The notes under the pieces: generated by a model | Told to the model about the DNA's origin: nothing | Databases searched by the model: none | Seen by the model: only the letters and a program-made list of their open reading frames with translations | Source of the DNA: a virus | Virus record (IMG/VR): IMGVR_UViG_3300034072_000527 | Coordinates: 1-44,018 of that record | Strand: one strand, 5' to 3' | DNA: 44,018 nucleotides | Translations under genes and position numbers: made by a program | Shown: in pieces, positions 4,811 through 34,700 of the stretch | How positions within the stretch are numbered: the first letter of the stretch is position 1 | Layout of the letters: each line of letters starts with the position of its first letter

Positions 4811-4980
4811 AGGATGCGTTCGACCAGAGCGCCTGCGGCTGCGCCGAAGGTGGCGACGAAGGCCACCAGCCCGTAGAGCCGGAGCCACGCGGGGGTGCCG
4901 TTACCGTCGATCACGAGTGACAGCGACACGGCCATCAGCAGCATCCCGACGAGAAGACCGATAAGCGCGCCGACGATCAC
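4807..4980 (-). CDS. Small two-helix membrane protein
   Basis: A 57-residue protein with two hydrophobic stretches: residues 2-24 (VGALIGLLVGMLLMAVSLSLV) and about 38-55 (LVAFVATFGAAAGALVE). The short loop between them contains charged and polar residues. The GTG start overlaps the stop of the single-stranded DNA-binding protein gene and its stop overlaps the rusA GTG, so it is translationally coupled on both sides. I do not recognise the family; membrane location is the only inference. Confidence 0.75.
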   Translation of the reverse strand: MIVGALIGLLVGMLLMAVSLSLVIDGNGTPAWLRLYGLVAFVATFGAAAGALVERIL

Positions 4981-5654
4981 AGCTCGTCGTCCTCGTCACC
5001 GTCGACATCGCTGTCGTCAGCACCGGCAGTCTCGCGGTCGTTCTCGATGCCGTCCTCGATCTCGTCGCCATCTTCCTCGGCACCGAAGCCGTAGGAGGCG
5101 GCGTCGCGGGCACCGTACGAGACCAGCTTGATGATCTGCACGGCGTTGAGGCGGAAGGTGCAGCCGACGGTCTTGTCGTTGGCGGCGTAGTAGGGGACCA
5201 GCTCGATCACCATCTTCATTTCGCTGCCCGAGCCAATCTGCGGCGGGTTCTTGAGCTGCACACCCCGGGCGTTGAAGTAATCCGGCCACCGCTTCCACGG
5301 CTTGCCGGTCTTCTGCGAGATGCCCGAGTGCTTCATCGAAGCCTTGATGATCTTCCGGCCAGTCTCCTCGCCGGTCTCTTCATCTTCCTCCGCCTTGATC
5401 AGCGAGACGAGCTGGAGCTTGTTGGCGACGGCCTTCTTGCCCTTCGAGATCAGGTCTTCCTTGACCTCTTCGAGCTTCGCCTGCGCCAGCTCTTCGGCCT
5501 TCGCTTCGATCTCCTGCAGGGTCTCGTCGTCGGCGTCGAAGGCGAGCGCGACGGAGAACTTGCCGTCCTTGTCGAACTTGGTGTCGGGGTTGTTCAGGGT
5601 GACCCAGCCAACGGCGGTGCCGCGCGAGGTACGGAAGGTGGGGTTCTTTGCCAT
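4977..5654 (-). CDS. Single-stranded DNA-binding protein (T7 gp2.5-like)
   Basis: A 225-residue protein (T7 gp2.5 has 232). It begins MAKNPTFRTSRGTAVGWVTLN, as many gp2.5-like proteins do, has a charged helical insert around residues 50-95 and ends in a very acidic tail (DDSDVDGDEDDEL). In T7 that tail contacts DNA polymerase and helicase. AAGGA precedes ATG 5654; longer frames upstream overlap the next gene and are rejected. It coats single-stranded DNA at the replication fork and helps strand annealing. Confidence 0.93.
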   Translation of the reverse strand: MAKNPTFRTSRGTAVGWVTLNNPDTKFDKDGKFSVALAFDADDETLQEIEAKAEELAQAKLEEVKEDLISKGKKAVANKLQLVSLIKAEEDEETGEETGRKIIKASMKHSGISQKTGKPWKRWPDYFNARGVQLKNPPQIGSGSEMKMVIELVPYYAANDKTVGCTFRLNAVQIIKLVSYGARDAASYGFGAEEDGDEIEDGIENDRETAGADDSDVDGDEDDEL

Positions 5655-5694
5655 GTGGTGGGGTTCCTTACAGGTCGTGTGCGCCGGGCCAGAA

Positions 5695-5883
5695 CTAGGT
5701 CTGCCGGGGGTCTGAGGGGGCGGTGCGGTTGGAGATTTCGGCGAGGACGTCGCCTTCGAAGGTGTCGACGGCGAAGCCTTGGGCGTCGGCGCGGGACAGG
5801 GCGTCGAGAGGGACACGCTCCGTGCCCCCCTCGATCATCTTGTCAGCCACCGCGTCCACGAGAGCGCGGTAGGAGTGGCTCAT
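5695..5883 (-). CDS. Hypothetical 62-residue protein
   Basis: A small protein coupled by ATGA to the upstream gene, with an Ala/Asp-rich helical first half. Its length and place (just before the single-stranded DNA-binding protein) recall T7 gene 2, the 64-residue inhibitor of host RNA polymerase. I see no convincing residue match, so that role is only a positional suggestion. Confidence 0.65.
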   Translation of the reverse strand: MSHSYRALVDAVADKMIEGGTERVPLDALSRADAQGFAVDTFEGDVLAEISNRTAPSDPRQT

Positions 5884-7190: not shown

Positions 7191-7208
7191 CCGATAGTGC
7201 GTGTTATT
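7191..7208 (-). promoter_or_regulatory. Phage RNA polymerase promoter (A type)
   Basis: The minus strand carries AATAACACGCACTATCGG, followed by GTTATTGAACC, which could form a small 5' hairpin. It drives the middle gene block from 7159 downward. The upstream half touches the operator-like dyad at 7207-7221. Confidence 0.85.
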
Positions 7209-7221
7209 CGACGACGTGGAA
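7207..7221. promoter_or_regulatory. Operator-like dyad, copy 6
   Basis: TTCGAC-GAC-GTGGAA on the plus strand, one of six copies of the dyad TTCGAC-N3-GTGGAA. It lies between the RNA polymerase stop (7224) and the promoter at 7191-7208 and shares about two bases with that promoter, so a bound protein could block initiation. Confidence 0.6.
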
Positions 7222-7223
7222 GT

Positions 7224-9704
7224 TTAGGCGAAGGTGTAGGCGGCGTTCAGGACCGCGTTCAGGTCCAGCGTCCCGGCCTTGGGCGGAGCCGGAAGCTCCT
7301 CGGCAAGCTCTTCGCCGAGCTGCTGCTTGAGCTGCTCGTAGAAGTCCCCGAGGACGTCGCCTTCGTACTGCTTGATGAACGTCTCGCGCAGGATGCCCGA
7401 GAGGCGGTCAGTGTCGGCAGCGTGGGTCCCGAAGCTGTCATGGATCATCGCAAGGTGCGCGATGCCTTCACGACGGGACTGCAGCGCGACCGACTGCAGG
7501 TGCGCGGCATCGAGCGAGTGGACGAAGTTGGGAGCGACGCCGTTCGCTTGCGCCCGGCTGTCGATCTTCTCTTCCTCCACACTGAGCATCACGTCGAGAC
7601 GTGCCCCTGCCCAATGCGTGATGATGCGCTTGCCCTTGCTCTTCTTGTACTCCTGCAGGATCGGAAGGCCCATCGGGGTCTCCCACCACAGCGGGAGGTC
7701 AGCCTTCGCCGCCACCTGTGCCGCGTCCCGCAGCCAGTCCATTGCCGCAGCCGCCGACCGAATGGTCGAGCGGATCGCCCGGTAAAGGACGTGCGACAGC
7801 CACATGGCAGCGTGGTAGTTGTCCGCGCCGCCGAGGTAGGACTGCTCCCCGGCCAGCGCAGCTTCCCGGTCCAGTTCCTTGAGGGTCTGGTGGATCATCT
7901 GCTGCATCCCGAAGCGGGTTGCCGAGTAGCAGTAGGTCATCGTCGGGCGCTTCGCGATCTTGCGGTTCACCTTCCCTCCCCGCCAAGGGTTCGGGATGGT
8001 CAGCTCGATCCCTTCCGCGTTCTCGAAGGTGATCGTGTCGGTCGCGTCGGCCTCTTCCTGCGCCTTGGTGGCGACCGCCATATAGACGTCCGCCGGGGTC
8101 TCCGAGGGCAGGAGGTTGACCGTGCGCCCGCCGTCCTCGTCGCGGAGCATGGCGGAGAAGTGCTGCAGGCCGGAGCAGGACCCGTCGAGGGCCACGGGGA
8201 TGCGGCTCTCATAGGTCGTCGGGTCGTCCAGCGACATGGCCCGGTTCAGCTCCATGCAGGCCGCGAGGGCACAGTAGGGGCTGTCGGCGGTGGTCCAGAA
8301 GCGGGCACCGTCGAGCGGGTTCGCGCCGCTGTCGAGGATGGCGTCGATGTTCTCGGCGACCCACGCGAGGCGGTCGTCGAAGCTCACCTTGTCCACCCCG
8401 AACAGGTTGGCGATGTGGATTTGCAGCCAGCGGAAGCCCTGCAGACCGAGCGCCTTGCCGTCGGCGAAGTGGATCAGCGCCTTCTGCCAGTCGCTGCCCT
8501 GCGGCGAGGGGCCGAAGACCGGGATCGGGTAGGCCCGGCCACGGAAGTCCAGCTCGTGCGGGAAGTAGATGCGGTCCTCGTCGACAAAGCGGCGAGCGAC
8601 CCACAGCCCCTGCATGACAGCCATACGGGCGCTGACACGCTCGGCGTTGGCCGCATAGACCCGCGCTGCCTCGCGCTTCCACTCAGCCTTGGCGGCTTCG
8701 TTGGTGTCAATGTCGTGCGGCTTGGCCGGGATGGGATCGTCGGCGCGCTGCGGGAGACCCCCGAGGGACGTGCCGTCGCTCCACACCTCTTGCATGACCG
8801 CGAGGACGTCGGCGTTGATCTGCCACGGGGTGTCCTGAATGTGGTTCACCGACTCGTAGCAAGCGTCGACGTCATGTCCGCGCAGCTCTTCGTGATAGGC
8901 CTTGTTCCGCTGCTTGACGAAGCGGTTCCCGGCCCGGGGCGTGAGGTAGCCGCCATAGGTGGGCGAGCGCCAGCGGCGCGGGCGGACCAGCATCGGCAGG
9001 TTGATCGGCTCCATCGTGGAGCAGCGGTCGTGCTGGTTGTCGAGCCAGCCCTGCAGGGTCTCGGTCGGCATCAGGCGGTAGATCGTGCCGCGCTTGTGCT
9101 TCGAGCCTTCCTTCGTGAACAGCCCGGTCGCTTCGATCACCAGCTCCATGAGCTTGAAGCCGATCTGCGCGCGGGTGGTCTTCGGCAGCTCGCGGCGGAC
9201 GCCTTCGGCCTCGAACAGCTTCTGGACGGCAGCCCGGCGCTGGCGGGAGTAGCCGCGCTTTTCCTGCGCCTTGAGGTAGCCCTTGTAGCCCACGCGGTTC
9301 TGCTCACGGAACGCCTGAAACTCCAGGCTCTCGATGATCGCGTCGGCGATGCTGATAGCGATGTTCTGCAGGGTCGCGCGGGCGACTGCCATGTTCACCA
9401 TGACGCGGACCGTCAGGTAGGCGACCTCGTCGGCGTCCATCAGGAGGATGAAGGGGACCACGTCGTGGCGGCGACCGGCCTTGCCGTTGCAGGCTTCCGC
9501 TTCCAGCTCGCGGATCGCGGCAGCGACAGGCTCGATGCAGGCCTTCACCAGCATCCGGCCCGGCGGCAGGTTGGCTTCCTCTTCGACCGTCCCGGCCTCG
9601 ACCTTCCACGGCAGCTGCCGCGAGTGATAGCGGGAGATACCGAGGGCGCGGCTTTCGTCTTCCAGCTCCAGCTGGCGGCGGATCAGGTCACGGATATTCT
9701 GCAT
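7224..9704 (-). CDS. Single-subunit phage RNA polymerase (T7 gp1-like)
   Basis: An 826-residue polymerase (T7 has 883). Catalytic residues match T7: D507 (LDGSCSGLQHFSAML), K585 and Y593 (AKRPTMTYCYS), H730 (PNFVHSLDAAH) and D756 (IHDSFG). The conserved DFRGRAY is at about 386-392, and the C-terminus ends in FA as T7 polymerase does. ATG 9704 is chosen because AAGGAAA lies five to eight bases upstream. It should recognise the five promoters at 905, 7191, 9813, 15541 and 39158. A promoter for itself lies upstream at 9813-9831, giving positive feedback once the first polymerase is made. Confidence 0.98.
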   Translation of the reverse strand: MQNIRDLIRRQLELEDESRALGISRYHSRQLPWKVEAGTVEEEANLPPGRMLVKACIEPVAAAIRELEAEACNGKAGRRHDVVPFILLMDADEVAYLTVRVMVNMAVARATLQNIAISIADAIIESLEFQAFREQNRVGYKGYLKAQEKRGYSRQRRAAVQKLFEAEGVRRELPKTTRAQIGFKLMELVIEATGLFTKEGSKHKRGTIYRLMPTETLQGWLDNQHDRCSTMEPINLPMLVRPRRWRSPTYGGYLTPRAGNRFVKQRNKAYHEELRGHDVDACYESVNHIQDTPWQINADVLAVMQEVWSDGTSLGGLPQRADDPIPAKPHDIDTNEAAKAEWKREAARVYAANAERVSARMAVMQGLWVARRFVDEDRIYFPHELDFRGRAYPIPVFGPSPQGSDWQKALIHFADGKALGLQGFRWLQIHIANLFGVDKVSFDDRLAWVAENIDAILDSGANPLDGARFWTTADSPYCALAACMELNRAMSLDDPTTYESRIPVALDGSCSGLQHFSAMLRDEDGGRTVNLLPSETPADVYMAVATKAQEEADATDTITFENAEGIELTIPNPWRGGKVNRKIAKRPTMTYCYSATRFGMQQMIHQTLKELDREAALAGEQSYLGGADNYHAAMWLSHVLYRAIRSTIRSAAAAMDWLRDAAQVAAKADLPLWWETPMGLPILQEYKKSKGKRIITHWAGARLDVMLSVEEEKIDSRAQANGVAPNFVHSLDAAHLQSVALQSRREGIAHLAMIHDSFGTHAADTDRLSGILRETFIKQYEGDVLGDFYEQLKQQLGEELAEELPAPPKAGTLDLNAVLNAAYTFA

Positions 9705-9796
9705 GGGATTTCCTTCCGGGTCAGGGATGAGGCCCGCGATGCGCAGGCCGAGGGTCCGAAGGGGCACCGAGGGCGCTCCTAAAGGTCTCTCTCAGT

Positions 9797-9831
9797 GGGT
9801 GTGTTCACACCCCCGATAGTGCGTGTTAATT
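9797..9831 (-). promoter_or_regulatory. Phage promoter with 5' hairpin ahead of RNA polymerase
   Basis: The minus strand carries AATTAACACGCACTATCGG (9813-9831). Right after the start GG comes the perfect inverted repeat GGGTGTG-AA-CACACCC (9797-9812), which would cap the transcript with a hairpin. About 90 bases of leader follow before the polymerase ATG. Confidence 0.85.
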
Positions 9832-9840
9832 GGGCATCCC

Positions 9841-9874
9841 GGCACGATCTTCGACGAGGCGGAAGTATCGTGCC
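9841..9874. promoter_or_regulatory. 34-bp composite palindrome: operator dyad inside inverted octamers
   Basis: GGCACGAT at 9841 and ATCGTGCC at 9867-9874 are perfect inverted repeats. Between them lies operator-like copy 5, TTCGAC-GAG-GCGGAA (9850-9864). The site is between the integrase stop (10004) and the RNA polymerase promoter. It could be a repressor site controlling RNA polymerase; its size and spacing also resemble a tyrosine recombinase core site, which is an alternative reading. Confidence 0.5.
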
Positions 9875-9901
9875 AGAACGTGCCACGGCGCATCGCGCCT
9901 A

Positions 9902-9928
9902 ATCGTGCCAGTTGGCACTGGCGTTTTT
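9902..9928 (+). terminator. Hairpin with T tract on the plus strand
   Basis: GCCAGT-TGGC-ACTGGC (9907-9922) followed by GTTTTT. It has the form of an intrinsic terminator for rightward, antisense transcription toward the integrase gene. An ATCGTGCC octamer overlaps its left arm. Confidence 0.5.
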
Positions 9929-9963
9929 CTCCGTGTAAGTGATTGATTATTTAGGGAGTTATT

Positions 9964-9994
9964 GGAGCGGGTAGGGGGACCCGCTCCGTTTATT
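9964..9994. terminator. 9-bp perfect hairpin downstream of integrase
   Basis: GGAGCGGGT and ACCCGCTCC flank a six-base loop (9964-9987). It lies 17 bases past the integrase stop. The T-rich side (GTTTATTTT) is on the plus strand, so as an intrinsic terminator it would work best rightward; for integrase mRNA it may simply stabilise the 3' end. Confidence 0.5.
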
Positions 9995-10003
9995 TTCAGT
10001 GAC

Positions 10004-11284
10004 TTATTCATGGCTCACCGCGACAGCCTCGGCACGATCTGTTCCACCTGATCGACGATCTACAGTGGGGCATGGTGTGCCATCCGCTTTCGCTTTCCCC
10101 CCACCGTAGGCGTTGAGGATAGACGTGCCCCGCCAGACGTGGCTGTTCATCAGGTGCAGGTAGCGCCCGGCGGTGATCTTGATGTCCGAGTGCCCGAGCC
10201 AGTCGCGCAGAGCGACCAGATCGAGGCCACCCTCGGCGAGGCGGGTGGCGCAGGTGTGCCGGAAGGTGTGCAGCACGACGTCGTCGAACTGGAACCCCTT
10301 TGCCGCCATGTCCTGCCGGATATTCTGGAGCAGGTAGAGCGGGCCGGAGCTACCCTTGGCCCACGGGAACCAGCGGGTGCCCTCGACGCGCTCGTTCAGC
10401 TCTTCGATCACGCGCAGCGCCCGGTCGGTGAGCGGGACGTCGCGGGGTTTCTTGCTCTTGGTCACCACGATTTCCCGCCCGGCGTAGATGGTGCGCCGAG
10501 GGATGGAGAGCCACACCCCTTCCTGCTGCTCGCCCGTCAGCGGGTCCGTCCAGCGTTTCCGCTTGACCCACGAGGGACCCGCGAGGATCGCCTCGGTCAG
10601 GCGGGTGCCGGTGTCGGTGAGCAGGATGATCAGCCGCTCGAAGTGCCACCATGCTCGGAGAGGCTCGGCCTGCCGCCGGGTCAGGATGCAGTCGAGCAGC
10701 GCCGCCTCTTCGTCGAGGCTCACCACCCGGTCGCGCTCGTTCTCGACCTTGATCGAGGGGAAGTCGGGCATGGCCTTGAGGACCCCTTCCCTCACCGCGT
10801 GGCGACACGCTGCCGACAGGCTGCCGGTCAGCTTGCGGACGCTGGCCGGGGCGTAGCCCGCCTCGAACAGATCGTCGGTCAGCTGCTTGGCAATGGCCGA
10901 GGTCACCTGTCCGATCTGCAGATCGCTGGGCAGCATCTTGTTCAGGATGCGGACGTTCGACCGATGCGTCGCGTCGGCCCGGCAGTCTCCCCACACGTCG
11001 CGGTGCGAGAGGCACTGCGCCAGCCACGCGGACAGGTAGGGCGTGTCGAGCTTCGTCAACGTGGAACCGTCGCGGCTGATCTGGCGACCCTTCGGTGCGA
11101 TCACCCCGCCCACGGCAGGGTGCAGCGGGTGGACCCCAGCAATCCAGTCGCGGCGCTGGGCCTCGGCCTCGGCCCGGTCCTTCGTCTTGAGGCCCACGCG
11201 GGACCGGCGGGTGCCGCCCTGTCCGTCGGGGACCTCGGTGTCGAGGTAGTAGATGCCGTTCGGCTTCTGCTTGAGCGCGGTCAT
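10004..11284 (-). CDS. int: Tyrosine recombinase / phage integrase
   Basis: A 426-residue integrase with a SAM-like core-binding domain (about 80-180) and a C-terminal catalytic domain. All active-site residues are visible: R228 (TGTRLTEA), a lysine among K276-K279 (KSKKPRDVPL), H339 and R342 (LHTFRHTCATRL), H365 (WLGHSD) and nucleophile Y375 (AGRYLHL). It would join phage and host attachment sites. Integrases beside the RNA polymerase gene are known in some T7-like phages of marine bacteria. AAAGGA precedes the ATG, which overlaps the upstream stop by ATGA. A tail of about 50 residues after Y375 is longer than usual. The gene appears intact. Confidence 0.96.
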   Translation of the reverse strand: MTALKQKPNGIYYLDTEVPDGQGGTRRSRVGLKTKDRAEAEAQRRDWIAGVHPLHPAVGGVIAPKGRQISRDGSTLTKLDTPYLSAWLAQCLSHRDVWGDCRADATHRSNVRILNKMLPSDLQIGQVTSAIAKQLTDDLFEAGYAPASVRKLTGSLSAACRHAVREGVLKAMPDFPSIKVENERDRVVSLDEEAALLDCILTRRQAEPLRAWWHFERLIILLTDTGTRLTEAILAGPSWVKRKRWTDPLTGEQQEGVWLSIPRRTIYAGREIVVTKSKKPRDVPLTDRALRVIEELNERVEGTRWFPWAKGSSGPLYLLQNIRQDMAAKGFQFDDVVLHTFRHTCATRLAEGGLDLVALRDWLGHSDIKITAGRYLHLMNSHVWRGTSILNAYGGGKAKADGTPCPTVDRRSGGTDRAEAVAVSHE

Positions 11285-11448
11285 GGCTTGGTCCTTTCCA
11301 TCGGGTACTGCCCGGCGCGGCGGGACAGGCTGATCTGCCCGGCCCCGTAGGACTCGGCGTAGTTGATGATCTTGGCGCGCGACCGCGTGTCCGGGGTGAC
11401 TTCCCCGAAGAGGTCGAGGGCGCGCTCGCTGTGCGGGTCTCGGCTCAT
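11281..11448 (-). CDS. Hypothetical 55-residue protein upstream of integrase
   Basis: ATG 11448 one base after the MarR-like gene's stop; the stop overlaps the integrase ATG (ATGA), so the three genes form one operon. The middle (TRSRAKIINYAESYGAGQISLSRRAGQ) is basic and helical. The position suggests a recombination directionality factor or integrase partner, but no helix-turn-helix is clear. Function unknown. Confidence 0.7.
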   Translation of the reverse strand: MSRDPHSERALDLFGEVTPDTRSRAKIINYAESYGAGQISLSRRAGQYPMERTKP

Positions 11449-11449
11449 G

Positions 11450-11842
11450 TCAGCTCTCCATCGTAATGGCAGCGGCGACCGTGTCGATCACGCGCTGCCC
11501 GGTTCGTGTCAGCCGCAGGAACTTGCGGCGGTGGTCTGTCGGGTCCAACTCGGCCACGAGCCAGCCCAGCCCGTCGAGGCGGTCCCCGTCGCGCTTGCGG
11601 CCTTCCTTGAGGAAGACCTTGTAGGTGGTATGCAGGCTGCGGTTGACCTCAAGACCGAGGGTCTCTTTCAGGTCGGTGAACGTCGCCGCCCGTCCCGCGC
11701 GGTCGGCCAGCGCCGCCGTGAGGAAGAACGCAGCCTGCGCCAAGGTCAGCTGGCGCGGAGCGATTTCAGCTAGGACGATCAGGCCTGCCGAGAAGTTTCG
11801 CAAGGCGGGCGTGTACCGCCGCCGCTCGGTCGTTGTTGGCAT
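11450..11842 (-). CDS. MarR-like winged-helix regulator
   Basis: A 130-residue protein with the MarR outline: N-terminal dimer helix (ALRNFSAGLIVLAEI), a helix-turn-helix (LTLAQAAFFLTAALADRAGRAATFTDLKETLG, then recognition helix around NRSLHTTYKVFLK) and a wing ending RRKFLRLTRTGQRVID. AGGAG precedes ATG 11842. It heads the operon with integrase, like a repressor-integrase cassette. An operator-like dyad (11883-11897) sits just upstream, suggesting autoregulation. It is the most likely protein to bind the six dyads in this genome; that is inference. Other winged-helix families cannot be excluded. Confidence 0.75.
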   Translation of the reverse strand: MPTTTERRRYTPALRNFSAGLIVLAEIAPRQLTLAQAAFFLTAALADRAGRAATFTDLKETLGLEVNRSLHTTYKVFLKEGRKRDGDRLDGLGWLVAELDPTDHRRKFLRLTRTGQRVIDTVAAAITMES

Positions 11843-11882
11843 GGTGTTTCTCCTGCGTCCCTTCGATTTCATGCAAGGGACG

Positions 11883-11920
11883 TTCGATCATGTGGAACTT
11901 ATCTGCGGTCATGTCAATGT
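11883..11920 (-). promoter_or_regulatory. Candidate promoter with operator-like dyad (copy 4) before the MarR-like gene
   Basis: The plus-strand dyad TTCGAT-CAT-GTGGAA is at 11883-11897. On the minus strand a perfect -35 TTGACA lies about 20 bases upstream, with a weak -10 (CATGAT, 19-base spacer) inside the dyad. A protein bound here would cover the -10, which fits autorepression. Confidence 0.5.
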
Positions 11921-11969
11921 TCTTTGGTCGGACCCGCCGCCGATGGCAGGACCTCAGGGTTGCGACCCT

Positions 11970-12016
11970 CGCCGCCCGGCTTGGGCGTAGGCCAACGATG
12001 CTCGGCCCGGGCGGCG
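11970..12016. repeat. Long inverted repeat upstream of the MarR-like gene
   Basis: Ten-base perfect arms (CGCCGCCCGG at 11970-11979, CCGGGCGGCG at 12007-12016) with a 27-base loop. No U tract follows on the minus strand. It separates the early small genes from the regulator-integrase operon and may end early transcripts or act as a protein site. The stretch 11843-12061 shows no convincing gene. Confidence 0.5.
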
Positions 12017-12061
12017 TAGGGATTTGTTCCTTATGTGTTCTCGTTCGTGTAGGAAAGTGTC

Positions 12062-12241
12062 TTATTCGCAATCAGGGAGCCACTTAGGCAGCGGTCGGGA
12101 CAGCTGGCCGAAAATCAGCGGGGTGTAGGCGCGAGGCTGCGCCGGGGTTTCCGAAGGGGCCGGGCAAGAGCGTAGCAGGGCGCGCTGCGCCCCGGTGGTG
12201 TGCCGGTCGGGCCGGTGCCCGTTCCAGTTGGGGCGGCTCAT
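12062..12241 (-). CDS. Hypothetical 59-residue protein
   Basis: Starts MSRPNWNGHRPDRHTTGAQR; the ATG overlaps the upstream stop (ATGA). Pro- and Arg-rich, no domain seen. Last gene of the early block before the inverted repeat at 11970-12016. Confidence 0.6.
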   Translation of the reverse strand: MSRPNWNGHRPDRHTTGAQRALLRSCPAPSETPAQPRAYTPLIFGQLSRPLPKWLPDCE

Positions 12242-12333
12242 GCCCACCCCCGCTGCTCGAAGGCTTCATCGGTGGCTTCCTGCAGCTGATCGAGCAGCGC
12301 GTCGGACAGGTGGTGTGCGTAGGTGTCAAACAT
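12238..12333 (-). CDS. Very small acidic helical protein
   Basis: A 31-residue peptide beginning MFDTYAHHLSDALLDQLQEA. GGAGGAT stands eight bases before the ATG and the stop overlaps the next gene. The excellent ribosome site is the main support. Unknown function. Confidence 0.6.
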   Translation of the reverse strand: MFDTYAHHLSDALLDQLQEATDEAFEQRGWA

Positions 12334-12335
12334 GG

Positions 12336-12539
12336 TCAAAATCCTCCGTTGTAGATCGAGTGATATTGCCCCCGCGCCTTGGCGTGGAAGGTGAGCATCT
12401 GGGCGTAGAAGCGGTGCCGAGCGGCGCGCTTGGCAGGGTCCCGGCGGTGGCGCTTGAGAATGAGGCGGCGGGCACGGCGGACGACTTCGGTGTCGCTGTC
12501 GGCGACGTGCAGGCCGAGGCGGAGATATTGGGCGAACAC
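12336..12539 (-). CDS. Small basic early protein
   Basis: A 67-residue protein, GTG start with AGGAGG seven bases upstream. Very Arg/His-rich (RRARRLILKRHRRDPAKRAARHRFY), likely helical and possibly nucleic acid-binding. Similar short basic proteins occur in early regions of other phages, with no known role. Longer frames upstream overlap the neighbouring gene and are rejected. Confidence 0.65.
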   Translation of the reverse strand: MFAQYLRLGLHVADSDTEVVRRARRLILKRHRRDPAKRAARHRFYAQMLTFHAKARGQYHSIYNGGF

Positions 12540-12541
12540 GA

Positions 12542-12724
12542 TCAGGCCTCCTGTGTTGCGAGTAAGGCCCGCGCTTCGTTGTGCCCCTTGGACCACTCAA
12601 GGTGGCCTTTGGTGCCCTCGGGCATCGGGTTGTCGGTGTAGGCGGTGCCTTTGATCGCCGCCCGGCGACCCATGCGGCGGCAAGCCTCGTAGTGGGTGAT
12701 CACGATCATGCTTCGGGTGGTCAC
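12542..12724 (-). CDS. Rmf/CrpP-like small protein
   Basis: A 60-residue protein starting at a GTG with AAGGAA eight bases upstream. The pattern GRRAAIKGTAYTDNPMPEGT followed by HLEWSKGHNEA is the ribosome modulation factor/CrpP fold signature (G-A-G, DNPxP, W-G-A). Cellular Rmf dimerises 70S ribosomes, so a phage version could bind host ribosomes or mRNA early in infection; this is inference. The gene lies in the early block, where host-takeover factors are expected. Confidence 0.75.
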   Translation of the reverse strand: MTTRSMIVITHYEACRRMGRRAAIKGTAYTDNPMPEGTKGHLEWSKGHNEARALLATQEA

Positions 12725-12726
12725 GT

Positions 12727-12915
12727 TCAGTTTCCTTCGATTTCCCGGCCGTGCCGGGTGTAAAGCGGGCCGCTGTAGAAGGCGGCGTTGGCGAGGCGCT
12801 GGCGGTCCCGTTCGAGGCCTTTCAGCAGCGCCGGGACGCGGCTTGCGCTGTCGATCAGCGAGGCGAGGGCGCAGACCCCCGCGCCGATCAGGAAGAGGGC
12901 GATGGCGATGCTCAT
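12727..12915 (-). CDS. Small membrane protein
   Basis: A 62-residue protein with one N-terminal transmembrane helix (residues 2-22, SIAIALFLIGAGVCALASLID) and a basic cytoplasmic tail. The ATG overlaps the upstream stop (ATGA). Function unknown. Confidence 0.7.
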   Translation of the reverse strand: MSIAIALFLIGAGVCALASLIDSASRVPALLKGLERDRQRLANAAFYSGPLYTRHGREIEGN

Positions 12916-13391
12916 GCGTCGAGCCTTTCAGTGGACCAGCGCACCAGCTGTCGGCGGCTGCGGTGTTGGGATGCAGGGGCGGCTTGTGTCTGATCGATCA
13001 CGATGCCGTCGCGGACGGTGACGACGTGCCGGGACACGCAGACCATGTAGGTCACCCCCGGCTTGGCGTAGCGCCGGGCGAAGGTCTCCACGCTGCAGCG
13101 CGGCAGGTAGTCGGCAAGGCTCGGCGATTTCATCATCCGCAGCCACTGCAGGTCCCCGGCGGGAACGTGCTGGCGGTGCTTGCAGGGCACCCCCAAGGTC
13201 TCCAGCGCGGCCTTGCGGTGCAGGTGGTGGGTTCCCCCGGTCCACTTGCGCCGCCCGGCGGCGTAGTAGGGCGCGAGGGTGTTCCACGCCTTTTCGAAGG
13301 GCACCCCGGCGAGGATTGCGGTGGCGAGGACCCCGCAATGGCCCCAGAGGGGCACGGTGCCGTAGTCGGCGGGATAGAGCGGATGCGTCAT
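12912..13391 (-). CDS. Predicted papain-fold cysteine hydrolase
   Basis: A 159-residue protein. Near residue 19 WGHCGVLATAILAGVP puts a Cys at the start of a helix, and near residue 121 SRHVVTVRDGIVIDQ puts a His on a beta strand, the usual Cys...His order of papain/C39-like folds. Between them are a conserved-looking GGTHHLHRKAALETLG segment and extra His/Cys residues. Similar short phage proteins of unknown substrate exist. It could be an early anti-host protease or amidase; activity is inference. ATG 13391 follows the upstream stop by one base. Confidence 0.6.
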   Translation of the reverse strand: MTHPLYPADYGTVPLWGHCGVLATAILAGVPFEKAWNTLAPYYAAGRRKWTGGTHHLHRKAALETLGVPCKHRQHVPAGDLQWLRMMKSPSLADYLPRCSVETFARRYAKPGVTYMVCVSRHVVTVRDGIVIDQTQAAPASQHRSRRQLVRWSTERLDA

Positions 13392-13392
13392 G

Positions 13393-13731
13393 TCAGAACG
13401 CCCCCAGCTTGAGGGTGAACGACCGGCCAAAGCCGCTGGGCACCTTCACCTTACCCGTCTGGCAATCGACCGAGAAGATCACCCCGTCGAAAGCCGTGTT
13501 GATCGGCATGATGCCCAGCGAGAGACCGCCGGGGATTTTCTCGTGGCACAAGCCCACGAACCGGGCCGCAGCGTAAGACCCGTCGCCCTTGCGCATCCGG
13601 GGTGCGGCCTCTTTCAGCCAGTCAATGACGTCGTCAGCGTTCCAATGGAGATAGACCTCGACCCCCATCGGGCGGTCCATGTCAGCGGACAATTGAGCGT
13701 CGGGGAAGCGGATGATTGCGCGGTTACCCAT
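13393..13731 (-). CDS. Conserved-looking hypothetical early protein
   Basis: A 112-residue alpha/beta protein beginning MGNRAIIRFPDAQ, with GVEVYLHWNADDVIDWLKEA and YAAARFVGL segments. AAAGGA precedes the ATG. I recall similar small proteins on phages and plasmids, without function. It is the second gene of the early block. Confidence 0.75.
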   Translation of the reverse strand: MGNRAIIRFPDAQLSADMDRPMGVEVYLHWNADDVIDWLKEAAPRMRKGDGSYAAARFVGLCHEKIPGGLSLGIMPINTAFDGVIFSVDCQTGKVKVPSGFGRSFTLKLGAF

Positions 13732-13812
13732 GGTGATGTTCCTTTCGTGATTTCGGTGCCTGTCTCGTCAGCGCCGGGCGGCTATCCGGCGGACCCTGCG
13801 CGGTGGCAGGGT

Positions 13813-13827
13813 TTCGACTAGGTGGAA
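13813..13827. promoter_or_regulatory. Operator-like dyad, copy 3
   Basis: TTCGAC-TAG-GTGGAA on the plus strand, just after the stop of the 13830-14603 gene. It is part of a 20-base direct repeat (13812-13831) identical to 14617-14636. A 7-bp hairpin (ACCCTGC/GCAGGGT) follows on the minus strand. Confidence 0.6.
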
Positions 13828-13829
13828 GT

Positions 13830-14603
13830 TTAGGCGAAGTGCCGCTTGCCGGTGCCGTGTGCGGCGATGGTGATCGACGCCTTGGCCTTGCCAGCGGTGC
13901 CCATGCAGGCCTTGCAGGTGATGCAGCTGGTCACGTTGCCCTTTTCGTCCGACGCCGGGCAGGTGGTTTCCTTGCCCTTCACGTTCTGGAAAGGCTCGGC
14001 GGTGACGCGGAAGGTCCGATAACCCATGCCGTGGGCGGCTTCCATGTCGGCAAGGCTGTCAGCGGACGCCATAACCAACTCGCTCCAACGGGCCGGGATT
14101 GCCTGCCACTGGTGGGTGTAACCCGTCCAGCCCTTCGCATTGATCAGGGCTGTTTTCCAGAGAGCGAACGGGGCGGCTGCCGGGTCCCCGTAGGTCCCGA
14201 GACGGACCATGCGACCAGCGAACAGGGCTGCAGCTTCGAAGGCGTTCGCCTTGGGATAGATGCCGCGCTGATAGGCCGCAAAGACGCTCCGGGGACCGTG
14301 CATCAGGGTGACGTAGCAAGAGCGGCCCTTGCCGGTCCCGTCGCCGCGATGCGGGCAGGTCCCGCAGATCGACACGTCGTCACCCGAACGGACGGCGCTA
14401 ATCGGGTCAATGTCGCTGCGCAGGATATAGGTCTGCACCATTGCCCCGGTCTTTTCGTTCGTGGACTTGGCGCGCAGCCCGGTGGCGATCACGACAATCG
14501 GCTTTCCGTCCAGCTTGCTCGGGCCTTCATACAGCACGACGCCGTTGGCCTTTGCGAGGACGGGCGACAGGGCAGCTTCGGTGGCGGGTTGAATGTTGAA
14601 CAT
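13830..14603 (-). CDS. First early gene: Cys-rich hypothetical protein
   Basis: A 257-residue protein. An alpha/beta N-terminal part contains GKPIVVIATGLRAKSTNEKTG; it is followed by two Cys clusters: CGTCPHRGDGTGKGRSC near 79-95 and CPASDEKGN plus SCITCKACMG near 214-233, likely zinc-binding. I recognise the family from other phages but know no function for it. ATG 14603 has AAAGGA upstream. It is the first gene behind the host-type promoter at 14946-14973, the position of T7 gene 0.3 (anti-restriction), though there is no similarity. Identical 20-base repeats holding operator-like dyads flank the gene. Confidence 0.8.
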   Translation of the reverse strand: MFNIQPATEAALSPVLAKANGVVLYEGPSKLDGKPIVVIATGLRAKSTNEKTGAMVQTYILRSDIDPISAVRSGDDVSICGTCPHRGDGTGKGRSCYVTLMHGPRSVFAAYQRGIYPKANAFEAAALFAGRMVRLGTYGDPAAAPFALWKTALINAKGWTGYTHQWQAIPARWSELVMASADSLADMEAAHGMGYRTFRVTAEPFQNVKGKETTCPASDEKGNVTSCITCKACMGTAGKAKASITIAAHGTGKRHFA

Positions 14604-14617
14604 GGTGACGGTTTCCT

Positions 14618-14632
14618 TTCGACTAGGTGGAA
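14618..14632. promoter_or_regulatory. Operator-like dyad, copy 2
   Basis: TTCGAC-TAG-GTGGAA on the plus strand, identical to copy 3, 15 bases before the ATG of the first early gene. It lies in the leader rather than over a visible promoter, so it may act as a roadblock or at RNA level. Confidence 0.6.
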
Positions 14633-14945
14633 GTTTCAAGCGTTCGCTTGCAACGCCCCCGGACCTAGCCCGGAAGCGATGCAAACGGCCCGGCGGGTAT
14701 GGCCGGGCACCTATTTGCTAGGGGGCGCTTGTGTCCCCCAATCCGGCGCGTTCCTATCGCTCCGGGTCACCCAGCACCCCTACTCGCCCTGCCTATGCAG
14801 TAACGCCCCCCTAGTGGACGCCTTCAGCTTTCTATGGTGCCTTTCGGCTTGCCCTCTATGTCAGCCCGGGCCGGGTGATCTAGGCGGTAACTGCGAGGCC
14901 CTGCTAGTGCCGTGGGCCGGTGCGTCCGTCGCTTCGATGTTTTGG

Positions 14946-14973
14946 AATATAAGCCCGTCTGATTGATAGTCAA
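14946..14973 (-). promoter_or_regulatory. Host sigma70-type early promoter
   Basis: On the minus strand TTGACT, 16 bases, TATATT, pointing to the early gene block starting at 14603. It is the only strong host-type promoter I find, and it lies at the head of the map as T7 early promoters do. Operator-like dyad copy 1 (14969-14983) overlaps its -35. Confidence 0.75.
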
Positions 14974-14983
14974 CCACGTGGAA
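14969..14983. promoter_or_regulatory. Operator-like dyad, copy 1, over the early promoter -35
   Basis: GTCAAC-CAC-GTGGAA on the plus strand; the right half-site is exact and the left half keeps four of six bases. It covers the -35 box of the early promoter, the expected place for a lysogeny repressor to silence early transcription. Confidence 0.5.
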
Positions 14984-15103: not shown

Positions 15104-15118
15104 CTATGGTGCCCCTAG

Positions 15119-15187
15119 GGTGCCCGGCATGGTGCCCGGCATGGTGCCCGGCATGGTGCCCGGCATGGTGCCCGGCATGGTGCCCGC
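15119..15187. repeat. 12-bp tandem repeat, five copies plus a partial
   Basis: GGTGCCCGGCAT repeated exactly five times from 15119 to 15178, then GGTGCCCG. A short open frame across it (His-His-Ala-Gly repeats on the minus strand) has no ribosome site and is not taken as a gene. Likely involved in DNA end processing or replication. Confidence 0.9.
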
Positions 15188-15540
15188 TAGAGTACCGAAG
15201 GGGCCGGGCACGAAACAAAGCAGGGCACAGCGAAAGGATGCGCGCGCCATTGCGCCCTAGGTGCCCCGGCGGACCCCCTGCCCCCTGCCCCTATGGTGCC
15301 CGGCAGGGCGGGGCACGATTCGATTGGAACAGTACAGGGGAATGAACGCGCGCAATCCCTAGGGGTGCCGTCAATCGTGCCGCCCTATCGCGCCACGGTA
15401 TAGGTGGCCGGGACGTCTCAGGCGCGCCTAGATTAGAAGGCACGATAGGCATGGACCACCCCGGGACCCCTAGGGGGGTAGCGGCGCTGACCGCTGCGTA
15501 TATGGGGCTTCGGATTTTTGCAGCAAAACCAACGGCCTTC

Positions 15541-15559
15541 AATTAACACGCACTCTCGG
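15541..15559 (+). promoter_or_regulatory. Phage RNA polymerase promoter, reversed orientation (C type)
   Basis: The plus strand reads AATTAACACGCACTCTCGG, matching the promoter at 39158-39176 and continuing GAGGGTGGA against GAGAATGGA there. All genes are on the minus strand, so transcription from it runs into the 3' end of terL in antisense. It lies at the probable genome end. Confidence 0.8.
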
Positions 15560-15782: not shown

Positions 15783-17525
15783 TCAGCGCCTTCCTCGGCC
15801 TCCTACGGGGCGGCCTACGGCACGACGTGCAGCGACCCCTCCCCTGCTCTTCTCCATCAAGGTGAAGACGGAGGTGCCGGAGAAGAAGCGGCGCTCGTTC
15901 TCCCGCTCGATCTCGGCTGCCCGCTCCCGCTCGGCCTTCTTGGCGTCGGCGTTGAGGTACTCGGACCAGTAGCAGACGCCCATGGACAGGACGTCGACCA
16001 TGTCGTCATGGCGGAGTGCGCCACGGGCGTTCTGGATGTGGGTCAGCTGATAGAGACCCCTATGGGCCATCGGGGACAGCATGTCTGCCCGGAGGACGGA
16101 CAGGTCGATGACGAGGCGGTGCTGCTTCATGACCGGCTCCAGCCAGCTGATGATGCGCGCCTCCTTCATGCCGCTGACCTTCATGCCCTCGATCCGGCAG
16201 GGCCGGAGTGCGTTGACGTGGGTCTCCAGCAGCTTGGCGAACATGCCGTCGCCGAAGTTGTCCTCGGTGATGATGGCGTTCACCTCATGCCTGGCACTGA
16301 TCTTCGCCAGCTCCGACAGGGTCTCGGGGGAGTAGCCCTCGCTGAACCCGCCCCACGCCGTCACGAAGACGTAGCCGAGCAGGAACTTGGTCACCACGTA
16401 GGTGGTGCGGTCGCGGCCACGGCCCGAGGGGTCGATGTGCATGACGGCCCCGGTGTACGGCAGGAACTCGGTCTGGTGCCGCATGGGGCGGTACAGCCGG
16501 TCGCCGTCGAAGCCGACGTTCTCGATGTCCTTGATGACCAGATCGGGGTCGCTGGACCAGATCAGATGGCCGGGGGCCACCTTCTTATCCAGATCGGTGA
16601 CGATCAGGTCGCGGGTCTTGAGCGGGTACCGCTCGGCGTCCGACAGGGTCGTGTCGAGCTGGAACTGCAGCAGGAAGCCCGCCGCCCGGTACTCGGTCTC
16701 GCGCTCGATCAGGTCGAGGTCGTTGAACCGCTCGGGGTCCGTCGGTGCCCCGCCGAGGCTCGAAGACATCGGCTTGGCGAGGTCGGGGTTCGCCTTGAGG
16801 TCCTCTAGGAGCATGGGGGCGAGGAAGCCACGGTAGTTGTGGAGCTTGTCCGCCGTCGGGTAGCGGGCAGGCCACACGCGCACCTCGTAGCCCTTCTCGG
16901 GCAGGTGGCGGTAGATCGACTGCTCGCTCTGCGGGGTACCGAGATACACGATCTCGCCGCCCGGCTTGAGGATAGCGGCGTACTCCTTGGTCTTGCTCTC
17001 CAGCTTCTCGCGCATCAGCTCCGTCTCGGAGTTCTTCACGACCTCGACGTCATCCGAGATGACGAGGTCGCCGCGCGAGCCGGTGAGCTGGCCGGTGATG
17101 CCGACCGCTTTGACCGAAGGGGACTTGTCAGCCTTGGCCGGGCCGACGTCGAACACGAGGGTCGACGACCGCTGGCCGGGCCGGGCGCGCAGCTCATCCC
17201 ACAGGCCGTCCCCGGCGTCGTGGTCGATGATCTGCTTGATGAAGGATGCGATCTCGTTGGCAAAGGCCTCGTTGGCCGAGACGATCACGACCTTGAGATC
17301 GGGGTTGCGCCACAGCCGCCAGACGACGTAGGCGGCAGTGAGGAAGGTCTTACCGACCCCTCGGAACGCCTGAATGAACCGGCGTTTCCCGCCGCCCACG
17401 AGGAACCGGGCGATGTCTTTCTGTACGCGGGTCGGCTCCGGCAGGAGCAAGAGCCGGGTCCACACGTAGAAGATGAACTTTAGGAAGGACCCTTGAAGCT
17501 GGTCGCGCGCGGAGGGTAGGCTCAT
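15783..17525 (-). CDS. terL: Terminase large subunit (T7 gp19-like)
   Basis: A 580-residue packaging motor (T7 gp19 has 586). The ATPase half has a Walker A-like GVGKTF at about 51-56 and a Walker B-like DLVISDDVEV near 129; the nuclease half has HIDPSGRGRD, a DNFGDG segment and a final HDDMVDVLSMG. It cuts concatemers and pumps DNA into the prohead with TerS and the portal. ATG 17525 overlaps the HNH stop (ATGA). The longer frame upstream lies over the HNH gene and is not used. The C-terminal tail is basic (GGRGRR). Confidence 0.96.
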   Translation of the reverse strand: MSLPSARDQLQGSFLKFIFYVWTRLLLLPEPTRVQKDIARFLVGGGKRRFIQAFRGVGKTFLTAAYVVWRLWRNPDLKVVIVSANEAFANEIASFIKQIIDHDAGDGLWDELRARPGQRSSTLVFDVGPAKADKSPSVKAVGITGQLTGSRGDLVISDDVEVVKNSETELMREKLESKTKEYAAILKPGGEIVYLGTPQSEQSIYRHLPEKGYEVRVWPARYPTADKLHNYRGFLAPMLLEDLKANPDLAKPMSSSLGGAPTDPERFNDLDLIERETEYRAAGFLLQFQLDTTLSDAERYPLKTRDLIVTDLDKKVAPGHLIWSSDPDLVIKDIENVGFDGDRLYRPMRHQTEFLPYTGAVMHIDPSGRGRDRTTYVVTKFLLGYVFVTAWGGFSEGYSPETLSELAKISARHEVNAIITEDNFGDGMFAKLLETHVNALRPCRIEGMKVSGMKEARIISWLEPVMKQHRLVIDLSVLRADMLSPMAHRGLYQLTHIQNARGALRHDDMVDVLSMGVCYWSEYLNADAKKAERERAAEIERENERRFFSGTSVFTLMEKSRGGVAARRAVGRPVGGRGRR

Positions 17526-17977
17526 GCGAGCGCCTCCGCGACCCTTTTGAAGAAGGTCTTGGCGTCCTCTTCTGTCGCCGTGCTTTTCGCGGCGTTGAAA
17601 GCGTATAGAACCACCTTGGTGTTGTCCTGCGTGTAGCCGCCTGCGGGATCGACCTTGTCGAGCGAGGGGGCGTAGAGATTGCGGACGTGTCCGAGGGACA
17701 TATCGAACGGGAGTGCTGTCACCTGACAGACCCCGGCGCGCAGAGCGGCCTCCACCCAATCGACCGTGATGTCGAAAGGGAGGGACTTTTTCTCTGCGCG
17801 GTAGCGAGCGCGCTGGTAGAGAGCGCCCGCTCGGTGACGCAGCGTCCCCTCGTACTTCTTCCGGGTATTCGCGGCCCGACAGGGCTTGCACACGTTGGTG
17901 TGCCCGTCGGTGTTCCGGCGGTCGCGGTCGAAGTTGTCTAGGGGAAGCCGGTCACCGCAGCTGCGGCAAGGCTTCAT
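17522..17977 (-). CDS. HNH endonuclease between terminase subunits
   Basis: A 151-residue protein with an N-terminal zinc ribbon (CRSCG at 4-8, CKPC at 30-33) and an HNH-like core with CQVTALPFDM, LDKVDPAGGYTQDN and VLYAFNAAKS. It differs from the other three HNH genes in this window, so it was probably acquired independently. It separates terS from terL, which are separated only by the small gene 18.5/18.7 region in T7, and overlaps both (TGATG and ATGA). Likely a homing endonuclease targeting terminase genes. Confidence 0.85.
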   Translation of the reverse strand: MKPCRSCGDRLPLDNFDRDRRNTDGHTNVCKPCRAANTRKKYEGTLRHRAGALYQRARYRAEKKSLPFDITVDWVEAALRAGVCQVTALPFDMSLGHVRNLYAPSLDKVDPAGGYTQDNTKVVLYAFNAAKSTATEEDAKTFFKRVAEALA

Positions 17978-34625: not shown

Positions 34626-34675
34626 TGGCGAGGGTGGGCGGAATCGAACCGCCGTCCCACGGTTTTGGAGACCGG
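34626..34675 (-). other. 3' half of a tRNA-Trp(CCA) gene, candidate attP core
   Basis: The minus strand contains an anticodon arm with loop CTCCAAA (anticodon CCA at 34666-34668), a five-base variable loop, a perfect T arm GGCGG-TTCGATT-CCGCC, the 3' acceptor strand CACCCTC, discriminator G and an encoded CCA. Upstream of the anticodon stem the match to tRNA stops: no proper D arm and only five of seven acceptor pairs (with GTCGGTG). A fragment from anticodon arm to CCA is what phage attP sites carry when they integrate into a tRNA gene. It lies 23 kb from int, which is unusual. Confidence 0.7.
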
Positions 34676-34700
34676 GGAGCGCCCAGCGCGCACCGACGTG

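Follow-up and report, generated by a model that had tools for sequence, protein, structure and literature searches.

Genes and recurrent sites at the locus

The DNA analysed here, referred to as the window, is the IMG/VR virus record IMGVR_UViG_3300034072_000527 over its whole length of 44,018 nucleotides, and the element in question is a short directional DNA site that recurs in its early region. The window is from a T7-like phage of the temperate type, as it carries a single-subunit RNA polymerase (RNAP), a T7-type TerL (15783-17891) and an integrase together, the combination of Autographiviridae-type temperate phages. The sites are probably the DNA targets of a MarR-fold immunity repressor that the phage itself encodes, and would form an operator/stoperator array. 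The key genes lie on the minus strand, i.e. the numbering runs against the gene direction. In the order of transcription these are the first early gene (13830..14603; phrog_2554, of unknown function), a few small genes, the gene of the 130-residue MarR-fold protein proposed as the immunity repressor (11450..11842), the tyrosine integrase gene int directly downstream of it (10004..11284) and the gene of the T7-type single-subunit RNAP (7224..9704). The best sigma-70-like sequence of the region, TTGACT-N16-TATATT (14946..14973, minus strand), was taken as the early host promoter by consensus match. Putative phage RNAP promoters of the sequence AACACGCACTATCGG were located on the minus strand upstream of the RNAP gene (9813..9827) and adjoining site 6 (7191..7205); exact copies of this sequence occur at 905, 7191 and 9813 and one-mismatch copies at 15545 and 39158.

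The sequence-only reading of this DNA had listed six copies of a near-inverted dyad, TTCGAC-N3-GTGGAA. A related sequence was present at all six coordinates and an exact match at only three: scored as TTCGACNNNGTGGAA, the copies at 7207, 13813 and 14618 were exact, those at 9850 and 11883 carried one mismatch and that at 14969 carried two. The copies had been numbered in the order of transcription (copy 1 at 14969, copy 6 at 7207), and read that way their placements were correct; the numbers are kept for the sites below. Site 1 (TTCCACGTGGTTGAC, 14969..14983, minus strand) overlaps the -35 element of the early host promoter, an arrangement also seen in the related phages L007 and L022. Sites 2 and 3, both TTCCACCTAGTCGAA on the minus strand, bracket the first early gene; site 2 (14618..14632) lies upstream of it and is kept in L019, L018, L020, L016, L022 and L024, and site 3 (13813..13827) lies 2 nt past its stop codon. 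Site 4 (TTCCACATGATCGAA, 11883..11897, minus strand) is upstream of the MarR-like gene, immediately downstream of a TTGACA. Sites 5 and 6 bracket the RNAP gene; site 5 (TTCCGCCTCGTCGAA, 9850..9864, minus strand) stands between the putative attP and RNAP, and site 6 (TTCCACGTCGTCGAA, 7207..7221, minus strand) starts 2 nt past the RNAP stop codon and abuts the putative phage promoter.

The window contained 18 matches to TTCGACNNNGTGGAA at up to two mismatches against 3.4 expected. A gene-strand motif, TTCCRCNNNRTYGAM (TTCCRC-N3-RTYGAM), fits all six sites and gave 8 matches against 0.10 expected in shuffles, an excess that is partly by construction as the pattern was fitted to the window sites. 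The conservation of the sites in relatives is the stronger evidence. Two matches to this motif fall beyond the six. The one at 10042-10056, on the opposite strand within the 3' end of int, is counted as site 7 (TTCCACCTGATCGAC, 10042..10056, plus strand, reverse orientation). The other, at 765-779, has no special position, is unexplained or maybe due to chance, and was not counted. A near match inside int at 11052, also listed by the earlier reading, was rejected as a coding stretch that is present in L004, L006 and L019 as well.

Site sequence across relatives

The DNA similarity of the window to known phages is almost nil, and relatives were therefore sought by protein search. This yielded contigs in which the module TerL-(early gene)-MarR-like-int-RNAP recurs. 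A scan of IMG/VR with a longer pattern gave only the nearest relative and three contigs that were not shown to be related, and in de novo repeat searches of whole early regions the signal was swamped by GC-rich coding sequence and left-end repeats. The sites were located by anchoring on the borders of homologous genes. The simple gene caller marks some gap sites as coding, and distances to the stop codons of homologous genes were used instead of a coding/intergenic split.

The intergenic sequences beside orthologous genes revealed that each phage has its own version of the site, e.g. TTCCATTAACCCGAC in L007, TTCCACATAAACGAC in L018, TTCCACTAGACAGAC in L022, TTCCATTAGRSSGAG in L024 and TTCCACAAGRSAGAC in L108. 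The matrix built from 73 sites of 13 phages, TTCCRYNARNNNGA, holds about 14.5 bits and is asymmetric; its mirror symmetry is limited to TC...GA at positions 2-3 against 13-14. The mean distance between copies was 3.4 within a phage and 5.7 between phages, a difference reached by none of 5000 permutations. The consensus was known when the 73 sites were chosen, and this exaggerates agreement at the shared positions to a greater degree than it affects the contrast within and between phages at the variable ones. That copies resemble one another more within a phage than across phages is what co-evolution of each array with its own binder would produce. With leave-one-phage-out matrices, sites were scored in each phage, giving 163 matches at a score of at least 9 against 44 in shuffles. 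The number of placed copies per phage is 7 in the window and up to about 10 in L007.

Conserved positions and orientation of the sites

The positions remain constant while the site sequence drifts between phages, and the earlier expectation that the sites would be kept at the same positions in relatives was borne out. TTCCRY occurs 0-4 nt past the RNAP stop codon in 10 of the 10 clade relatives, with a chance of about 0.012 per genome; these ten phages are related and do not stand for ten independent events, though the surrounding sequence has diverged. It was absent from this position in two distant phages found by RNAP alone. Site copies also flank the early gene and occupy the int-RNAP gap in relatives. 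On the early promoter, the site covers the -35 element in the window, L007 and L022 and lies in the -35/-10 spacer in L108, L020, L128 and L011; sitting on the -35 or in the spacer, these promoter copies function as DNA and not as RNA. Additional copies follow stop codons in the middle or late regions of L007, L017 and L010.

The orientation of the sites follows transcription. Nearly all the exceptions are a reversed copy at the 3' end of int, which was found in 10 of 14 phages (the window, L007, L011, L018, L020, L021, L022, L024, L108 and L128). The overall picture, many copies of a short asymmetric and oriented site in promoters and short intergenic gaps, is that of the arrays of cluster A mycobacteriophages.

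A site-like stretch beginning with AGT-TCC was also noted within the RNAP gene, where it encodes SS(I/V)S in 6 of 10 cases (L007 at 8944, L010 at 3125, L017 at 16054, L021 at 16849, L145 at 3429, and L009). In L007, L010 and L145 serine is rarely encoded by AGT. The stretch may be an extra site inside the gene or may reflect coding conservation.

More distant phages

The Pseudomonas phage LUZ100 is a distant relative with an RNAP 36% identical, and its published transcription start sites and annotated host promoters P1 and P2 (PMC10134795) allow the sites to be placed. Copies of the ATCCACYAGCGCATA type lie in the spacers of both P1 and P2. The others are found 4 nt past the RNAP stop codon, between int and RNAP, past the small terminase gene, and immediately behind gp14, the primase/helicase and the capsid gene. 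The 8 placed copies all point in one direction, and the backwards-pattern control gave none. The MarR-like gene of LUZ100 lies upstream of int and RNAP, and repression of RNAP by the MarR-like protein through sites near the RNAP promoter has been proposed (PMC10134795). That proposal is about sites on both sides of the promoter ahead of the RNAP gene, whereas the sites described here also occupy host promoters, post-stop positions and the int end; a genome-wide directional array is not part of it in the quoted text of PMC10134795. According to the same text, no stable LUZ100 lysogens were obtained by its authors.

In Pasto (L122), palindromic repeats of the GTCACTCAARGGTGAC type occur at 552, 698, 8768, 8868, 11856 and 12370, one of them shortly past the RNAP stop codon, and probably represent the equivalent array of a lineage further removed. 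The Bordetella phage BB8 (L125) has GTTCCAYN3GGGAA-like repeats between early genes, in the gaps after 1140, 1353 and 3990; these TTCCA-type repeats were excluded from the array set because bb8_p18, the gene before int, does not look MarR-like.

The palindromic Pasto repeats bear on whether the sites are conventional palindromic operators for a MarR-like dimer that act on promoter initiation only and so form a lysogeny switch. The window copies do look dyadic, and sites stand at the early promoter, before the MarR-like gene and beside the phage promoters. Such operators are nonetheless an unlikely explanation, as the dyad is lost in relatives, most copies follow stop codons and are remote from any host promoter, and the strand bias is strong. 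The near-inverted dyad of the sequence-only reading proved incidental. From its view of a lysogeny-switch operator set, the multi-copy regulatory sites across the host-transcribed early region, tied to a MarR-fold gene directly upstream of integrase, were retained; the classical palindromic operator was not, the site being directional and not confined to promoters. A simple promoter switch accounts for the sites less well than an array of transcription road-blocks (stoperators).

Candidate binding protein

The MarR-like protein of the window had no match in a Pfam search and a weak PHROG match to a transcription regulator. Its AlphaFold2 model (pLDDT, predicted local distance difference test, 78.7) has the MarR winged-helix fold. 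When the model was compared with the PDB using Foldseek, the top ones among the matches listed were almost all of the MarR family, with a best E of 7e-4. The MarR-like gene adjoins int in the relatives that have the gene. Relatives show almost no variation in the segment N(R/K)SLHTTY(K/R), part of the predicted recognition helix, or in the TTCC of the site. L011 has NKSLNTTYR in this helix and sites of the TTCGAGTA type, with copies in the spacer of the host promoter, between int and RNAP and, in reverse orientation, at the int end. The Caulobacter phage S2B (L015) encodes a divergent homologue, gp057c, with a different helix, and its sites are TTGCGTCA, [CG]TTGCGTCARTSC; they stand past the RNAP stop codon, to both sides of the early gene and around a promoter-like TTGACG. 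The early gene of S2B is also flanked on both sides by repeats of about 90 bp, which contain nested hairpins and start with the S2B site.

The adjacent MarR-fold protein is the best candidate for the binder of the sites. Binding by another protein, a host regulator or an unrecognised phage protein acting to the same or a different purpose, is given a small probability, lower than that of the palindromic operators. Several small early genes are uncharacterised, and the MarR-like protein is a candidate named from sequence; the occurrence of phage-specific site versions within one clade speaks against a host factor, the MarR-like gene encodes the one DNA-binding protein found in all the relatives examined, and the sites of L011 and S2B change together with the MarR-like helix.

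Several observations weigh against a MarR-fold repressor acting through these sites. The site is asymmetric, whereas the usual target of a MarR dimer is a palindrome, and the covariation of helix and site comes from L011 and S2B. L117 and L118 carry the MarR-like gene yet have few recognisable sites. In L019, the nearest relative that has the region, and in L018, the host promoter is present but bears no good site. Some site-like stretches occur in coding DNA, and the conserved positions are not independent samples, the phages being related.

Putative attachment site and prophage ends

The sequence GGGTCCCCCTACCCGCTCCA (9963..9982, minus strand), which resembles the 3' end of a tRNA-Gly and lies between int and site 5, is inferred to be the attP core of the window phage by analogy with L010. 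The latter opens with a tRNA-Gly(CCC) that ends in TTCACCCGCTCCA, followed by a site and then RNAP, all in the same direction. Related modules abut host tRNA genes in L010, L145, L024 and L127. In L145, a contig of the isolate Novosphingobium lindaniclasticum, the order is tRNA-Pro, two sites, RNAP and a site. In L024 and L127 the tRNA lies at the int end and is oriented towards int, and the reversed site of L024 would face it. Two of the three Novosphingobium matches, L127 and L129, have no RNAP and no clear array. If GGGTCCCCCTACCCGCTCCA is the attP core, site 7 and site 5 would come to lie at opposite ends of the prophage, each oriented against transcription from the chromosome. GGCACGAT/ATCGTGCC elements are repeated around site 5, which lies within these arms (window 9841-9874), and in the int-RNAP gaps of nearly all relatives; they are possibly integrase arm-binding sites.

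Proposed mechanism and known systems

In a lysogen, the repressor bound at site 1 would stop initiation from the early host promoter, and at site 4 it would damp its own operon. At sites 2 and 3 between early genes, and at sites 5 and 6 to either side of the RNAP gene, it would form a directional road-block, and stray host transcription would then make no self-amplifying phage RNAP. Sites 5 and 7, flanking attP and facing inward at the prophage ends, would stop chromosomal read-through, in particular that from the abutting host tRNA gene. A T7-type prophage carries a self-amplifying RNAP, and a leak of host transcription into its gene should trigger lysis. The array points to a candidate repressor, to the DNA site that this would bind and to a logic of positions, and immunity groups would become predictable from sequence.

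The RNase III sites of the T7 early region are RNA hairpins between early genes and around the RNAP gene, and the sites described here are placed alike. The latter also stand right past stop codons and ahead of ribosome-binding sites and are directional, and the int-RNAP copy lies within an inverted repeat. An RNA-level element in the early transcripts, serving processing, termination or translational control, is even so very improbable; the two halves of the site do not pair in relatives and give no consistent hairpin, the -35 and spacer copies are upstream of the transcription start, and the reversed copy, an orientation that the T7 sites do not share, recurs at the int end. Boundary repeats for the recombination and shuffling of exchangeable early genes, suggested by the bracketing of single genes (the early gene here and, by other repeats, genes in S2B and L023), are hardly credible, for they leave unexplained the -35 copies, the copy after RNAP in every relative and the reversed copy at the int end.

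The reading as an operator/stoperator array finds its closest parallel in cluster A mycobacteriophages such as L5 and TipsytheTRex, in which many short asymmetric sites lie in promoters and short intergenic gaps, are oriented with transcription and occur in phage-specific versions (PMC9283540). Their repressor is a monomer with a helix-turn-helix and a stoperator domain (PMC9283540). Both systems have multi-copy, asymmetric, oriented sites in differing versions, with a phage-encoded repressor as the binder, which for the window is a proposal. The bound repressor halts elongating RNA polymerase according to orientation in cluster A, and the proposed repressor of the window would do likewise. 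The window differs in the predicted MarR fold of the repressor, in a T7-like phage with its own RNAP, and in the inward-facing pair at the prophage ends. The window array is thus an analogue and not a member of the cluster A system because the repressor folds, one of them predicted, differ.

MarR-family operators usually consist of a single palindrome at a divergent promoter. The window protein shares its predicted fold with the regulators of this family (MarR, CouR, BpsR); its proposed site is asymmetric and multi-copy, and the protein has no Pfam match.

A more general proposal can be held only tentatively, at somewhat less than even probability. In temperate T7-like phages at large, including LUZ100 and S2B, a MarR-fold repressor would arrest elongation at many directional sites, an inward-facing pair would insulate RNAP from tRNA read-through, and these stoperators would have arisen independently of those of actinobacteriophages. 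If true, this would be a second, unrelated origin of stoperators.

Other features of the genome

A single-stranded DNA-binding protein is encoded at 4977-5816. A tRNA-Trp (anticodon CCA) was called by ARAGORN in the late region (34626-34697, minus strand). The left end, about 1 kb, has no large genes; its noncoding sequence holds a series of 12-bp repeats (GGGCACCATGCC), along with related GC-rich ones, at about 15118-15190 (minus strand). The left ends of relatives are likewise filled with repeats, but of different sequence.

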